Below, piece by piece: positions 1,130 through 6,701 of a DNA stretch of 64,000 bases (position 1 is the first letter of the stretch; each line of letters begins with the position of its first letter). The notes beneath the pieces were generated by a model, which was not told the DNA's origin, did not search any database, and saw only the letters and a list, made by a program, of their open reading frames with translations. Origin of the DNA: Opitutaceae bacterium EW11 (GTDB taxonomy: Bacteria; Verrucomicrobiota; Verrucomicrobiia; Opitutales; Opitutaceae); NCBI GenBank assembly GCA_003054665.1, contig QAYY01000010.1:372001-436000 (forward strand), read 5' to 3'. The translations under genes and the position numbers were made by a program.

Positions 1130-1415
1130 GCGCCCAAGTGACTCCGTCCGTCCGGAACGCCGATGTCTCTCGCTGCGCAGAGACGGCGCTCGCTTCCGGA
1201 CCGAAGGCGGCGACCCGACGAGCTGCGGGAGCGTTCCAGCACGCGGATTCTACCGCGGGCAGCGGCACGTTCGGGAGCATTTCGGAAGCGCGGTTCACGT
1301 TTCTCAGCACGGTCCGAGAGCGAAATCTTGGCAAGCCCACGGATCGCCTTCGGTCTTGCACCGCAGATGGCTTTGGCGGATTCCAGCTTCGGCCAGACCT
1401 CCGAAATCCGCATCC

Positions 1416-2393
1416 ATGCCCGAAACCCATCGTCAGACGTATCCGCTTTCCGATCACTACGACGGACGCGTCTTCTTCAATCCGGGCGATTTCCAGCTTC
1501 CGCGGTTCAGCGACATTCTCCGCTGGCAATTGAATCGGCAGGCGGCCCGCTGGCCCCGAGAGGTTCCCTTCCGCCCGCAGCCCCTTCCTCCCGCGCCCGC
1601 AGGCGGGGCGATCTCGGCGACCTGGATCAATCACGCGTCGTTTCTGCTTCGCACGGAGCAGCACAATATCCTGATCGACCCGGTATTCAGCCTCTGCTGC
1701 GGACCGTTCGGGAGGTTTGGACCGCGGCGCGTGCATCCGCCTGGCATCGCTCTGGAATCGCTCCCGCCCATTCACGCAGTCTTCGTCAGTCACGATCACT
1801 ACGATCACTGCGACCTCCCGGCGCTGCGGCAGATCGTGCGGGCGCACCGGCCCCTCGCGGTGACTCCGCTCGGCAACGGCGCTCTCCTCCGCCGCGCGGG
1901 TTTCCGCTCGATCGTGGAACTCGATTGGTGGCAGCAGCGGGCGGTTTTCCCCGAACTCCTCGTGTCGGTGGTGCCGTCTCAACATTGGAGCAATCGGCTT
2001 TCGGGCCGGCGCTGCGGGCGCCTCTGGGGCGGGTTCTACATCCAGAACCCCGGAGGCCGCCGGGTCCATTTCGTCGGCGACACGGGCTATCATCCCAAGC
2101 TTTTCCGACAGATTCGCGACCGCATGGGCGCATCGGACCTCGCGATGGTGCCGATCGGAGCCTACGAGCCCCGCTGGTTCATGAAGTCCCAGCACTGCAA
2201 CCCCGAAGAAGCCGTCCGGATTCATCGAGAACTCGGTGCAGCCGTCAGCGTGGGCATGCACTGGGGCACGTTTCAACTTACCGACGAGGCCCGTGACGAA
2301 CCGCCCGCAGCACTTCGCCGCGCGCTCTCCGATGCGGGCGAACCACAAGAGTCCATCAGGATCCTGGAACCCGGCAGTACCCTGGTCGTCTGA
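1416..2393 (+). CDS. MBL-fold metal-dependent hydrolase (NAPE-PLD/UlaG-like)
   Basis: 325 aa from the ATG at 1416; the open frame extends 20 codons further but without family similarity. The metallo-beta-lactamase motif HxHxDH is present as SHDHYDHCD (residues 125-133). FVGDTGYH supplies the later Asp ligand and GMHWGTF near the C-terminus supplies a late His. Order and spacing fit the NAPE-PLD/RomA-like branch of lipid- or lactone-type hydrolases, with two metals at the active site. There is no signal peptide, so it is probably cytoplasmic or peripheral. The substrate cannot be inferred from sequence or neighbours. Confidence 0.8.
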   Translation: MPETHRQTYPLSDHYDGRVFFNPGDFQLPRFSDILRWQLNRQAARWPREVPFRPQPLPPAPAGGAISATWINHASFLLRTEQHNILIDPVFSLCCGPFGRFGPRRVHPPGIALESLPPIHAVFVSHDHYDHCDLPALRQIVRAHRPLAVTPLGNGALLRRAGFRSIVELDWWQQRAVFPELLVSVVPSQHWSNRLSGRRCGRLWGGFYIQNPGGRRVHFVGDTGYHPKLFRQIRDRMGASDLAMVPIGAYEPRWFMKSQHCNPEEAVRIHRELGAAVSVGMHWGTFQLTDEARDEPPAALRRALSDAGEPQESIRILEPGSTLVV

Positions 2394-2592: not shown

Positions 2593-4089
2593 ATGCGCGC
2601 GCATCCGCTAATCCTCCTGACGGGGCTGACGGCCCTTAGTACCGTCGCGTCCGCCGGCGAAGAGCGGAACAACTGGCCTGTAGAGGTCGAGCAGCCGAGC
2701 GCATTGCCGCCTGCGCGGCAGGAAACGACCCGCTCGGGCCTTGGCCCCTTCCTTTTCAGCCAGCCGGTTTCGACGAACCAGTTCTCAGGCGCAGTCCGGG
2801 CCCGCGGCTTTCGGCCGCTCTTTCTGGAAGCCGTGGATTCGCAGGGCGAGGCGGTCGAAACCGATTTTCTGTATCCGCTGTTCACCTATCGGCGGGCTCC
2901 AGACGGCTACCGCTGGAGCCTCTTTTCGCTCGTCAACCACTACTCGACCCAGAGCGCTCCGCAGGCGGCGCCAAACCAGGGTTTCGACCTGTGGCCGTTC
3001 TATTTCTCGCGCGACACCGGAAACCCCGAGACTTCCTACCACGCCGTCCTGCCGATCGCCGGCACGGTTAGGAACCGATTCGGGCAGGACAAGCTGAGCT
3101 GGATCGGATTTCCGCTCTACGCCCGTTGGGAGAAAAACAATGTCACCACGACGACCGCTCCCTGGCCGTTCATCAAGGTGCTGCAGGGCGAGGGTAACGA
3201 GGGCTTCGAACTCTGGCCCCTCTTCGGGCAGCGGGAAAAAGCGAACACCTACCGCGAGCAGTTTTATCTCTGGCCGCTGATCTTCAAAAAAGAGACGCAC
3301 CTCTGGGAGTCGCAGCCCGACGTGAAGCAGGGCTTTCTGCCGTTCTACGCCAGTTCGCGGGACGGCGAATCGCGCAGCGAAACGTACCTCTGGCCGTTCT
3401 TCGGCTACAGCGATCGGACGGCGCCGTATCGGTATCACCAGACCAATTACTTCTGGCCGCTCCTCGTCCAGGGACGCGGCGACCAACGCTACGTGAACCG
3501 CTGGGGGCCGTTCTACACGCACTCCGTCATCAAGGGCGTGGACAAGACGTGGGTCGCCTGGCCGTTCTGGCGGCAGCAATCCTGGACCGATGGCGCACTC
3601 ACCCACAACAAGCGCCAGTTCTTCTTTTTCCTCTACAACGACACGGAGCAGCGCAGCGCCTCGAATCCCGCCCTGCCCGTCGCGCGGAAGACGCACTACT
3701 GGCCCGTGGCGAGCGTTTGGGACAACGGAGCCGGCCGCCGGCAGGTGCAGGCGCTCAGCCCGCTGGAGATATTCTTCCCCAACAACGACAACGTCCGGCT
3801 TCTCTACAGCCCGTTCTTCGCCGTCTACCGGTACAACCGCGTCGGGCCGGAGGAAGTCCAGCAGTCGTTTCTCTGGAACCTGGTGAGCTACCGCCGGCAA
3901 CCGGATAGCTCGGAATTCCATCTCGGCCCGCTCTTCAGCAAGGAGCGCAACCCGGAAGAGAAGCGATACGCCGTCGGCAACGGCGTGATCGCGCTCGAAA
4001 AGAACGCCGGCGCCGGTCGCTGGCATTTCTCGTTCTTCGATTTCAAACGCCGCACGGCAAATCGCCCGGCTGGCGCCACCACACCATGA
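2593..4089 (+). CDS. Exported WPF/WPL-repeat protein heading the Mla operon
   Basis: 498 aa with a signal peptide (residues 1-21, cleavage after VASA). I do not recognise a named family. The mature part has a recurring short unit built on aromatic-WP-F/L (for example FDLWPF at 131, ELWPLF at 206, YLWPLI at 225, YLWPFF at 265, YFWPLL at 286, VAWPFW at 321), spaced roughly 20-40 residues and alternating with charged turns. The rhythm of aromatic strands and polar turns suggests an outer-membrane or periplasmic beta-structure. Its stop overlaps the mlaE start as ATGA, so translation is coupled to the lipid transporter. This makes it a candidate envelope partner of that system; the role is inference. 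Confidence 0.8.
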   Translation: MRAHPLILLTGLTALSTVASAGEERNNWPVEVEQPSALPPARQETTRSGLGPFLFSQPVSTNQFSGAVRARGFRPLFLEAVDSQGEAVETDFLYPLFTYRRAPDGYRWSLFSLVNHYSTQSAPQAAPNQGFDLWPFYFSRDTGNPETSYHAVLPIAGTVRNRFGQDKLSWIGFPLYARWEKNNVTTTTAPWPFIKVLQGEGNEGFELWPLFGQREKANTYREQFYLWPLIFKKETHLWESQPDVKQGFLPFYASSRDGESRSETYLWPFFGYSDRTAPYRYHQTNYFWPLLVQGRGDQRYVNRWGPFYTHSVIKGVDKTWVAWPFWRQQSWTDGALTHNKRQFFFFLYNDTEQRSASNPALPVARKTHYWPVASVWDNGAGRRQVQALSPLEIFFPNNDNVRLLYSPFFAVYRYNRVGPEEVQQSFLWNLVSYRRQPDSSEFHLGPLFSKERNPEEKRYAVGNGVIALEKNAGAGRWHFSFFDFKRRTANRPAGATTP

Positions 4090-4838
4090 AACAGCTCAAC
4101 GCCATCTTCGAAGGTCTCGGCAGCGCGATCCTGCTCACGACTCGCGCCTTCGCCACCCTTCCGTCCGCTCCGCGCATCATCAAGCGCGTGGTGGAGCAGG
4201 TGTTCTACGGCGGCTACGGGTCGCTTCCGATCATCTCGATCCTCAGCTTCTTCATCGGCGCAGTGCTCGCGCTCCAGTCCGGCATCAGTCTGCAGAATTT
4301 CGGCGCCAAACAGCTGATCGGCACGCTCGTCGGCGAGTCCCTGGTTCGCGAACTCGGCCCGGTGATGGTCGCCATCCTCCTCGCGGGCCGCGTCGGCTCC
4401 GCCACGACCGCCGAACTCGCCTCGATGAAGGTGTATCAGGAAGTGGATGCGCTGGTGACGATGAACATCCCGCCGGAACGTTTCCTCGTCCTCCCGCGGC
4501 TGCTCGCCGTGCTGCTCTACATGCCGGTTCTCACGATCATCGCGATCGTGATCGGCTGGCTCGGCGGCGCGGTGATCTGCAACTACGTCACCTTCATCGG
4601 CGTCGAACCCGCCCAATATTTCCAGAGCATGAAGCAATTTCTCACCACCCACAAAATGGTGGATGGGCTGGTGAAGTCCGAAATCTTCGGCTTCTGCGTG
4701 ATCTTGATCGCTTGCAACACGGGCCTGCGCACCCGGGGCGGACCGCGCGAAATCGGCCACGCCGTCACGCGCGCCGTCGTCTTCGCCCTGATCACGATCC
4801 TGGTCCTCGATTACTTCATCACGAAAGCCCAAGCCTGA
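4086..4838 (+). CDS. mlaE: MlaE-family ABC transporter permease
   Basis: 250 aa with about five membrane segments and the MlaE core (RELGPVMVAILLAGRVGSATTAELASMKV, positions about 92-120). MlaE is the inner-membrane permease of the MCE-type phospholipid transport complex with MlaF and MlaD. The start overlaps the preceding stop (ATGA at 4086-4089) and the stop overlaps the mlaF start (TGATG at 4836-4840), indicating one translationally coupled operon. No mlaB, mlaC or mlaA is present in the cluster. Confidence 0.93.
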   Translation: MKQLNAIFEGLGSAILLTTRAFATLPSAPRIIKRVVEQVFYGGYGSLPIISILSFFIGAVLALQSGISLQNFGAKQLIGTLVGESLVRELGPVMVAILLAGRVGSATTAELASMKVYQEVDALVTMNIPPERFLVLPRLLAVLLYMPVLTIIAIVIGWLGGAVICNYVTFIGVEPAQYFQSMKQFLTTHKMVDGLVKSEIFGFCVILIACNTGLRTRGGPREIGHAVTRAVVFALITILVLDYFITKAQA

Positions 4839-5641
4839 TGAAAAAAACCATCATCCAAGAGCGCAGCGGAGGCGACCGGAAGCCCGTCGGCGTCGAGGTC
4901 ATCGGCTTGTCGAAGTCGTTCGGCAGCCAATCCGTGCTGCGCGAAATCAATCTGTCGATCCATCCCGGCGAAATCTTCGTCATCATGGGCCCCAGCGGCT
5001 CGGGCAAGAGCGTGCTGTTGCGCCAGATGGCCGGGCTCGATCTTCCGAGCGCCGGCTCGATCCAGATCGACGGCCACGACCCGGCGAATCCCGACACCCG
5101 CGACCGTTTCGCCCTCGCCCTCGTTTTCCAGGCCGGCGCCCTCTTCAACTCGCTCTCCGTCTACGACAACCTCGCCCTGTATCCGCTGGAGCACCGCCTC
5201 TGCCCGAAAAACGAAATTCGGGAACGCGTCCTGCGAGCGCTGAAAATCCTCTCGCTGGAGAACGCCGCGAAGAAGTTTCCCTCCGAGCTCTCCGGCGGCA
5301 TGAAGAAACGCGTCGCCATCGCCCGGGCACTCGTGATGGAGCCGCAGCTGCTGCTGTACGACGAACCGACGTCCGAGCTCGATCCTGTCATGTCCGCGAC
5401 GATCACCGAGATCATCGCGACGCTGAAAAACGAATTCAAGGTGACGAGCGTCGTCGTTTCCCACGACCGCGATCTCGCGCTCACGATCGCCGACCGCGTC
5501 GCCATCCTGATGCGCGGCAAACTGCTCTTCGTCGGCACGCCCGCCGAACTTCGCAAGGCGACCGATCCCGCGATCACCGACTTTCTGAATCCACAAATCG
5601 ATTTGAAGAAACCGCGCTATTTACAACTGGAGGCATCATGA
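4838..5641 (+). CDS. mlaF: MlaF-type ABC transporter ATP-binding protein
   Basis: 267 aa from the ATG at 4838; the longer open frame starting at 4712 only overlaps mlaE. Walker A is GPSGSGKS at residues 51-58, the signature is LSGGM, and Walker B is LLLYDEPTSELDP followed by the switch His in VVVSHD. This is the ATPase that powers MCE-linked lipid movement between inner and outer membranes. It overlaps mlaE by one base and mlaD by 4 bases (ATGA). Confidence 0.93.
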   Translation: MKKTIIQERSGGDRKPVGVEVIGLSKSFGSQSVLREINLSIHPGEIFVIMGPSGSGKSVLLRQMAGLDLPSAGSIQIDGHDPANPDTRDRFALALVFQAGALFNSLSVYDNLALYPLEHRLCPKNEIRERVLRALKILSLENAAKKFPSELSGGMKKRVAIARALVMEPQLLLYDEPTSELDPVMSATITEIIATLKNEFKVTSVVVSHDRDLALTIADRVAILMRGKLLFVGTPAELRKATDPAITDFLNPQIDLKKPRYLQLEAS

Positions 5642-6633
5642 ACCACAGCCAAATGACGGCCCGCGTGGGCCTGTTTTTCATCATCGGACTCGCCCTGATT
5701 TGGGTGACGTTCGAAGCGCTTCACAACGGGCGCTTCGAGAAGCGGAAGGGCTACACCGTGGTCGCTCCGTTCTCCACGCTCAAGGAGCTGAAGCCGGGCG
5801 ATGACGTCCGCCTGGCCGGCGTGAAGGTGGGTTCCGTCGAGACCACCCGTCTCGCCGAGGGCCGAGCCGAAGCCGTGCTTCTCATCAACCAAGGCATCAA
5901 GATCCCGCTCGACTCCACCGGCGTGATCTCGATGGCGGGCCTGATCGGCACCAACTACGTCTCCTTCGACATCGGCCACCCCTCCGCCGGCACGGTGCCG
6001 GAAGGCGGCACGGTGCGGACCAAGGACGCCGCTGACCTGAACACGATCATGTCCGACCTCGGCAGCCTCGGGAAAGACTTCAAGAACGCCCTCGGCCAGA
6101 TCGGGGGCGCGCTGGGCAACGGCCCGGACGGCCAGCCCGGCCTGTTCCAGAAGCTCGACCGCCTCGTCTCCGAGAACAGCGGCAAGATCTCCACGACGCT
6201 CGGCAACCTCGAGGACATCACGACCAAGATCAAATCCGGCGAGGGCACGATCGGAAAGCTGGTGAACGATCCGTCCGCCTACAACGAGCTCAACGCCACG
6301 CTCGCCGAGATCCGCGGCGCCGCCACGGAAGCGAAAACCTTCGTCGCGAACGCCCAGGGCATCGTCGATCAGGTGAAGAGCGGCAAGGGCACGATCGGAG
6401 CGCTGGTTTACGACGAGGAAGCCGGCAACAACATCAAGATCGTCTCGAAAAACCTCCGCGATCTCTCCGAGAAGCTGAACAACCCGAATAGCAGCTTCGG
6501 GCAGTTGATCACGAGCGACAGCCTCGTGCGCGACGCCCAATCGACCCTCCGCAAAGTCGACCGCGCGGTCGACGGCATGTCCGACCAGGGTCCGATCACC
6601 GCCGTCGGCGTCGTCGCCAACGCGTTGTTCTGA
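5638..6633 (+). CDS. mlaD: MlaD-family MCE-domain protein
   Basis: 331 aa. One N-terminal membrane segment (about residues 10-27) is followed by an MCE domain (about 37-115: VVAPFSTLKELKPGDDVRLAGVKVG...) and a long helical C-terminal half. That half contains a repeated element: KSGEGTIGKLVND near 201 and KSGKGTIGALVYD near 246. The MCE domain forms the lipid-conducting ring on the periplasmic side of MlaFE. The long tail is typical of MlaD proteins outside the Proteobacteria and may help bridge the periplasm. Last gene of the operon, followed by a strong hairpin. Confidence 0.92.
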   Translation: MNHSQMTARVGLFFIIGLALIWVTFEALHNGRFEKRKGYTVVAPFSTLKELKPGDDVRLAGVKVGSVETTRLAEGRAEAVLLINQGIKIPLDSTGVISMAGLIGTNYVSFDIGHPSAGTVPEGGTVRTKDAADLNTIMSDLGSLGKDFKNALGQIGGALGNGPDGQPGLFQKLDRLVSENSGKISTTLGNLEDITTKIKSGEGTIGKLVNDPSAYNELNATLAEIRGAATEAKTFVANAQGIVDQVKSGKGTIGALVYDEEAGNNIKIVSKNLRDLSEKLNNPNSSFGQLITSDSLVRDAQSTLRKVDRAVDGMSDQGPITAVGVVANALF

Positions 6634-6673: not shown

Positions 6674-6701
6674 GAAAGGCGCGCCAACCGGCGCGCCTTT
6701 C
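6674..6701 (+). terminator. Rho-independent-type terminator after mlaD
   Basis: A perfect 12-bp stem (GAAAGGCGCGCC and its complement) with loop AACC begins 40 nt after the mlaD stop. The downstream T-run is short and interrupted (CTTTCGCGTTTC). Confidence 0.75.

Follow-up and report, generated by a model that had tools for sequence, protein, structure and literature searches.

A four-gene operon (positions 2593-6633, forward strand) in a 64,000-nucleotide stretch of the Opitutaceae bacterium EW11 genome (contig QAYY01000010.1 of assembly GCA_003054665.1, positions 372,001 to 436,000 of the forward strand; hereafter the window) encodes an exported protein with a repeated tryptophan-proline (W-P) motif, which we call P1, followed by MlaE, MlaF, and MlaD. 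MlaFED-type complexes are inner-membrane lipid ATP-binding cassette (ABC) transporters. Judging from gene order, distribution, and residue co-variation, P1 is probably (at roughly 0.6) the periplasmic or outer-membrane-side component of a shuttle-free MlaEFD lipid transporter of the long-MlaD type, common across Verrucomicrobiota. That P1 partners MlaEFD is very likely, while the outer contact and lipid path proposed for it are held with less confidence; we infer its location, its contact with MlaD, its handling of lipid, and the direction of transport. A preliminary description of this DNA had placed an exported WP-repeat protein of 498 residues first in an mlaEFD operon whose genes overlap by 1-4 bases, and this was borne out by the open reading frames and by the junction letters ATGA, TGATG, and ATGA (overlaps of 4, 1, and 4 bases at P1/mlaE, mlaE/mlaF, and mlaF/mlaD, respectively).

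P1 was found in 32 of 57 genomes (the host and its relatives), in 106 of 384 genomes of the class (two of these, G190 and G382, being weak partial matches), in 182 of 215 genomes of one other order, and in 178 of 387 genomes of the phylum Verrucomicrobiota, some by weak matches; the genome sets overlap, and the counts are not additive. Counting near-identical loci once reduced 237 P1 loci to 209, which were deduplicated again by sequence for the neighborhood counts, for which loci were hand-picked from hit lists and not drawn at random. mlaE lies downstream of P1 on the same strand in 176 of the 209 distinct loci, within 200 bases in 165 of these 176, and P1 is directly upstream of mlaE in 176 of the 195 loci flanked by 3 kb or more; a strict count gives 177 of 207. 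Linkage was also seen in 32 of 40 P1 loci fetched from other classes of the phylum, and all 32 P1 genomes among the 57 have an MlaE. Homologs lying mostly away from mla genes, the outcome that the preliminary description named as refuting, were not what the related genomes held: P1 stands mostly with mla genes.

The host genome (6.4 Mb, 99.99% complete) has one P1 and two MlaE, and it gave no match to MlaC (PF05494) or MlaA (PF04333) anywhere, the same searches being positive in E. coli. The suggested absence of MlaC therefore holds genome-wide, while that of MlaB holds for the operon by inspection, no genome-wide search for free STAS proteins having been made. Across the 57 genomes, MlaC and MlaA were found in exactly the same 16, and P1 nearly excludes the pair (P1 only, 31; MlaCA only, 15; both, 1; neither, 10; Fisher p 1.8e-6 with kinship ignored). 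The sole genome of this set with both (G024) has 3% contamination. A quick tree of 69 MlaE rows, with supports of 80-96 on the branches separating the groups, sets the 49 P1-linked MlaE apart from the 17 linked to MlaCA, although the P1 side also takes in two other MlaE on long branches, and one MlaCA-linked MlaE (L173) falls at the base. Within the P1 side, groups at the level of phylum, class, and order match taxonomy, and on this tree the P1-type system looks old and mostly vertically inherited in Verrucomicrobiota. Because the P1-linked and MlaCA-linked MlaE form separate lineages, and the P1 side follows taxonomy, whole systems appear to have been exchanged rather than one gene replaced; the earlier proposal that P1 replaces MlaC/MlaA is thus supported by the near-exclusion but not as the substitution of single genes in this lineage. 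The two systems also differ in MlaD. Among MlaD genes not truncated at the edge of a stretch, with length counted between the beginning of the profile match and the stop, MlaD beside P1 has 254-463 residues (median 324, n=113) and MlaD beside MlaCA has 148-168 (n=17). The last residue of the 113 P1-linked MlaD is F in 100, L in 11, and Y in 2, and it is one of these three in 0 of 17 MlaCA-linked ones; a motif written for the C-terminal segment matched 101 of 113 versus 0 of 17.

P1 contains about 24 repeat units with a mean spacing of 19.7 residues, and the residue profile gives a unit core L-W-P-[LF]-[YF], with hydrophobic residues at -2 to +2 relative to the proline and polar ones nearer the loops; in P1 of the window, four units without proline were placed by spacing. 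Mean-field couplings were computed from 209 sequences (effective number 187), averaged over units, and compared with 200 control sets with jittered unit positions. Within-unit pairing symmetric about W-P scored 0.97 (control 0.41 +- 0.10, maximum 0.73), and pairing between the second arm of a unit and the first arm of the next scored 1.21 (control maximum 0.74). The within-unit ladder exceeded 0.4 in 19 of 23 scorable units, being weak at P154, 346, P390, and P407, and 28 of the 100 strongest couplings lay on the ladder versus 1.0 expected. This shows that P1 is a continuous antiparallel meander of about 24 short hairpins with W-P at the turn. Because the alignment is shallow for the length of P1, single contacts are not trustworthy, and co-variation at unit offsets 2-13 gave no clear contacts that would reveal a spiral; the hairpins could form any of a ribbon, a ring, or a closed barrel of short strands. 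Continuous meanders of this kind are known from MORN repeats, TCP10/G-box, and the OspA single-layer sheet, and P1 differs from MORN in its repeat core and in having no Pfam MORN match. Fold matches of the low-confidence P1 models described below to MORN/TCP10/OspA-type sheets are weak (Z 8-9.5, root-mean-square deviation 4-20 A).

In the mechanism we propose, MlaE and MlaF would be the inner-membrane pump, and MlaD, taken as a hexamer as characterized MCE proteins are according to Grasekamp et al. (2023; PMC10665443), would extend its long C-terminal region into the periplasm, each subunit closing with a short hydrophobic segment. P1 would form a sheet from about 24 beta-hairpins, its W-P turns stacked into a single hydrophobic edge, and it would connect MlaD to the outer membrane and help to pass lipid on. 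The long MlaD would make the MlaC shuttle unnecessary and P1 would give the outer contact that MlaA gives elsewhere, so that on this proposal neither MlaC nor MlaA is needed. In the same source, 85% of MlaD are described as long, the C-terminal barrel of Veillonella MlaD is described as completely absent from MlaD of the Planctomycetes-Verrucomicrobia-Chlamydiae (PVC) group, and the route by which barrel-less long MlaD, PVC included, reach the outer membrane is left open, with as-yet unidentified proteins mentioned (Grasekamp et al., 2023; PMC10665443). P1 is a direct candidate for that route, being co-encoded, exported, phylum-wide, and nearly exclusive with MlaC/MlaA. Should this hold, evolution arrived at the outer half of Mla more than once, and what relatives exchange are entire systems.

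Like the canonical E. coli Mla system (MlaFEDB, MlaC, MlaA), the window operon has MlaE, MlaF, and a single-MCE-domain MlaD together; unlike it, the operon has P1 and no MlaB, in a genome without an MlaC or MlaA match, and its MlaD has 331 residues as against 183 in E. coli (PMC10665443). The same paper describes a transenvelope MlaEFD of Veillonella that shares the elongated MlaD and the lack of MlaA/MlaC, but there MlaD has 419 residues, 88 more than in the window, with a ten-stranded C-terminal barrel, and the operon continues with tolC and tamB where that of the window carries P1 (PMC10665443). PqiABC, described as a PqiC toroid on a PqiB needle, is likewise an MCE needle with a separate outer partner, but PqiC is an outer-membrane lipoprotein (PMC10897342), and a crude lipobox pattern occurs in only 6 of 125 P1 sequences, so that lipoprotein nature is not a family trait.

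The reading of the repeat that we tried first was an integral outer-membrane beta-barrel of about 24 long strands, encoded by a gene of its own and comparable to the C-terminal barrel of Veillonella MlaD or to plant TGD4. P1 is exported, has about 20 residues per W-P unit, and is rich in aromatic residues (17.7% F/W/Y), and many family members have a C-terminal aromatic segment; some weak, low-confidence fold matches were to barrel proteins. Co-variation, however, contradicts it, pairing residues on either side of W-P with each other and leaving the through-proline ladder expected of long strands at background (0.09 vs 0.04), and the hydrophobic stretch is short, about -2 to +2 relative to the proline, the residues outside it being polar. 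We regard such a barrel as very unlikely, and of the outer-membrane or periplasmic location suggested earlier, the classic long-stranded form falls away, the location itself being part of our proposal. A different kind of role would be that of an operon accessory that does not touch lipid: an assembly factor, a scaffold, or a collar keeping the MlaD needle in place against the outer membrane. Such a role would fit the linkage of P1 to long MlaD and has a parallel in PqiC, which is described as doing likewise for PqiB (PMC10897342). The hydrophobic turn edge suits lipid contact as well as packing, which gives no clear separation between this role and a lipid-handling P1, but we consider a purely structural role unlikely.

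Several points weigh against P1 as the periplasmic or outer-membrane-side component of MlaEFD. When kinship was corrected for, the exclusion rested on five independent pairs, none of which went the same way and 2-3 of which went the opposite way (p 0.25); with five pairs the test is underpowered and cannot reach significance, its marker tree (the second MlaE) is poorly resolved, and it covered the 57 genomes minus 16 for which the stretch with the second MlaE was not fetched. P1 and an MlaA match occur together in 14 of the 384 class genomes, as against 25.7 expected (p 0.001 with kinship ignored, and with MlaA alone searched); in 12 of the 14 the MlaA match lies in a long frame (642-769 residues) and in one (G255) in a broken frame, while G265 has an MlaA of normal size with no mlaEFD around it (L142). 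The two AlphaFold2 runs on P1, with 10 sequences each, gave models of low confidence, with a predicted local distance difference test (pLDDT) score of 49.8 for the full length and 49.6 for residues 122-392. About 30 of the 207 P1 loci do not adjoin mlaE. Beyond the 176 linked loci, the 209 include 33 more: 19 lack mlaE although 3 kb or more of sequence was available, and 14 have shorter flanks. One of these 14 (L025) has P1 and MlaE in one frame, and two are too short to judge. The other eleven show no mlaE in 1.39-2.84 kb; eight of the eleven are closely related members of family f77, and L027 and L030, also among the eleven, prove unlinked when longer stretches from these positions (L147 and L174) are taken. 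The 19 loci lie in 18 genomes, 14 of which were searched for MlaE (all but G524, G616, G632, and G690), and, in favor of a partnership with MlaEFD, 10 of the 14 carry a P1-type MlaE elsewhere, with a best hit to P1-linked MlaE at 60-84% identity; the other four have further MlaE copies that are unclassified.

P1 also has a second recurrent neighbor, an HpnN-like RND/MMPL gene, found directly upstream in 40 of 103 mlaE-linked and 7 of 15 unlinked loci for which 2.5 kb of upstream sequence was at hand, so that seven loci have it without adjoining mlaEFD, one of them (L076) on the basis of an 88-residue match. With such a gene recurring beside P1 in one order, Mla may not be the only lipid transporter that P1 serves, and the dedication suggested in the preliminary description holds only loosely. 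On a stronger form of this idea, P1 would serve primarily an RND exporter that resembles HpnN and carries hopanoids or sterols, or act as a general outer-membrane lipid acceptor of several transporters, its adjacency to mlaEFD reflecting a shared lipid pool. The HpnN hopanoid exporter and Bst sterol transporters are described as RND lipid exporters (PMC10942540), and the best NCBIfam model for the upstream gene is HpnN (595 bits, under the cut-off of 752). All 47 such loci, however, are in genomes of one order; outside it the upstream gene differs and the mlaE linkage stays, as in the window, where no RND exporter gene stands beside P1 and the upstream gene encodes a metallo-beta-lactamase-fold hydrolase. 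This explanation also gives no reason for the exclusion between P1 and MlaC/MlaA, and we think it improbable, about as much so as the accessory role. A more speculative extension of the preferred reading, on which P1 is a component of MlaEFD, is that P1 represents a new bridge-like class of lipid transfer protein, in which an extended sheet of some 46-48 short strands stacks its L-W-P-[LF]-[YF] turns into an unbroken hydrophobic rail beside the MlaD needle for lipid moving between the membranes, a rail that would be shared with the HpnN-like exporter in one order; this is doubtful. With a strand spacing of 4.8 A, such a sheet, if fully extended, would measure about 220 A, close to the width of the periplasm.

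By reading, the N-terminal hydrophobic segment of P1 resembles a signal peptide: the most hydrophobic 19-residue window on the Kyte-Doolittle scale starts at residue 3, and beyond residue 30 the best 19-residue mean is just 0.51. P1 has 7 WP pairs with F or L next in line, whereas 10,000 shuffles of its letters give 0.26 on average and never more than 4; WP as such occurs 9 times, preceded by L four times and by N, P, F, A, and Y once each. At least six units with an aromatic residue before WP-F/L had been reported; the WP-F/L count agrees, but the preceding residue is aromatic (F, Y) in only 2 of 9 cases. P1 had no match in Pfam, NCBIfam, or PDB sequences, its family profile had none in PDB sequences, and none of 38 family members had a Pfam match at E 0.01, MORN included. 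Foldseek with the AlphaFold2 models gave no match at E 0.001, and VIA-align with these low-confidence models gave middling scores with barrel proteins among them. Of the structure prediction proposed earlier, the better part of the models shows the same short-strand meander at low confidence; the soluble enzyme fold unrelated to lipid transport that had been set as a refuting outcome did not appear, and nothing points to an enzyme. No P1 relative was found in plasmids, and among viral contigs 25 pattern stretches were confirmed in no case. A literature search that did not cover bioRxiv preprints or most subscription journals returned no paper on P1, which is weak evidence of novelty. The hairpin repeat of P1 looks like a family undescribed in the libraries searched. 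A second P1 match in the host genome (E 0.29, with an internal stop) was taken as chance.

Table 1. Features of the P1-mlaEFD operon and its 3' flank (window coordinates).
Feature	Position	Strand	Basis
P1, 498-aa exported WP-hairpin repeat protein	2593..4089	+	Open reading frame; homologs across the phylum
Putative P1 signal peptide, about residues 1-23; cleavage site is a guess	2593..2661	+	Hydrophobic N-terminus
About 24 hairpin units of about 20 residues, core L-W-P-[LF]-[YF], W-P at turn	2662..4050	+	Co-variation in 209 homologs; residue profile
mlaE permease, 250 aa	4086..4838	+	PF02405 4.5e-72; TIGR00056 above cut-off
mlaF ABC ATPase, 267 aa	4838..5641	+	PF00005 2.4e-33
mlaD, long form, 331 aa, MCE domain at residues 37-111	5638..6633	+	PF02470 4.8e-14
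Conserved hydrophobic C-terminal segment of MlaD, last 14 residues, final F	6589..6630	+	Comparison of P1-linked MlaD
Perfect inverted repeat 3' of mlaD, 11-base arms, 4-base loop, three T	6675..6700	+	Read directly

The inverted repeat 3' of mlaD (Table 1) is a possible transcript end. A terminator scan of the window performed at chance level and did not list this repeat among its hits, and a promoter scan of the window found none. The hydrolase gene upstream of the operon (PF12706, 4e-42) occupies window positions 1356-2393 on the forward strand. The second MlaE of the host genome (G000:C2:221901-222524; L154:3881-5308, reverse strand) has an N-terminal extension and a weak STAS_2 match (19.5 bits, under the 29.2-bit cut-off), and a long MlaE resembling it is present in many relatives.

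Elsewhere in the phylum, the frame joining P1, minus its last part, to MlaE (L025:922-3516, forward strand, genome G010) has 865 residues and is either a gene fusion or an assembly error. The weak partial P1-like matches of G382 (L145, on C15; 29.6 bits) and G190 (L146, on C9; 18.5 bits) lie within open frames as long as 738 and 879 residues, respectively, with no mla genes nearby. An example of the HpnN-like gene is L130:2995-5727, with 46 other loci. One of the long MlaA frames (L170:4488-6539, reverse strand, genome G103) is 684 residues long and has PF04333 at 83-287; the roughly 400 residues after it contain a GYSMG motif, appear alpha/beta hydrolase-like by eye, and have no Pfam match; long MlaA frames occur in 11 further P1 genomes. 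In genome G040 (L164, G040:C1:548000-558000), MlaC and MlaA are adjacent with no mlaE, mlaF, or mlaD match in the surrounding 10 kb, and elsewhere this genome has only the long MlaE. Short, E. coli-like MlaD of 148-168 residues accompany MlaC and MlaA at L141, L155-L163, L165-L168, and L171-L173. Short MlaD are described as restricted to Proteobacteria in PMC10665443, to which these 17 Verrucomicrobiota MlaD would be an exception.

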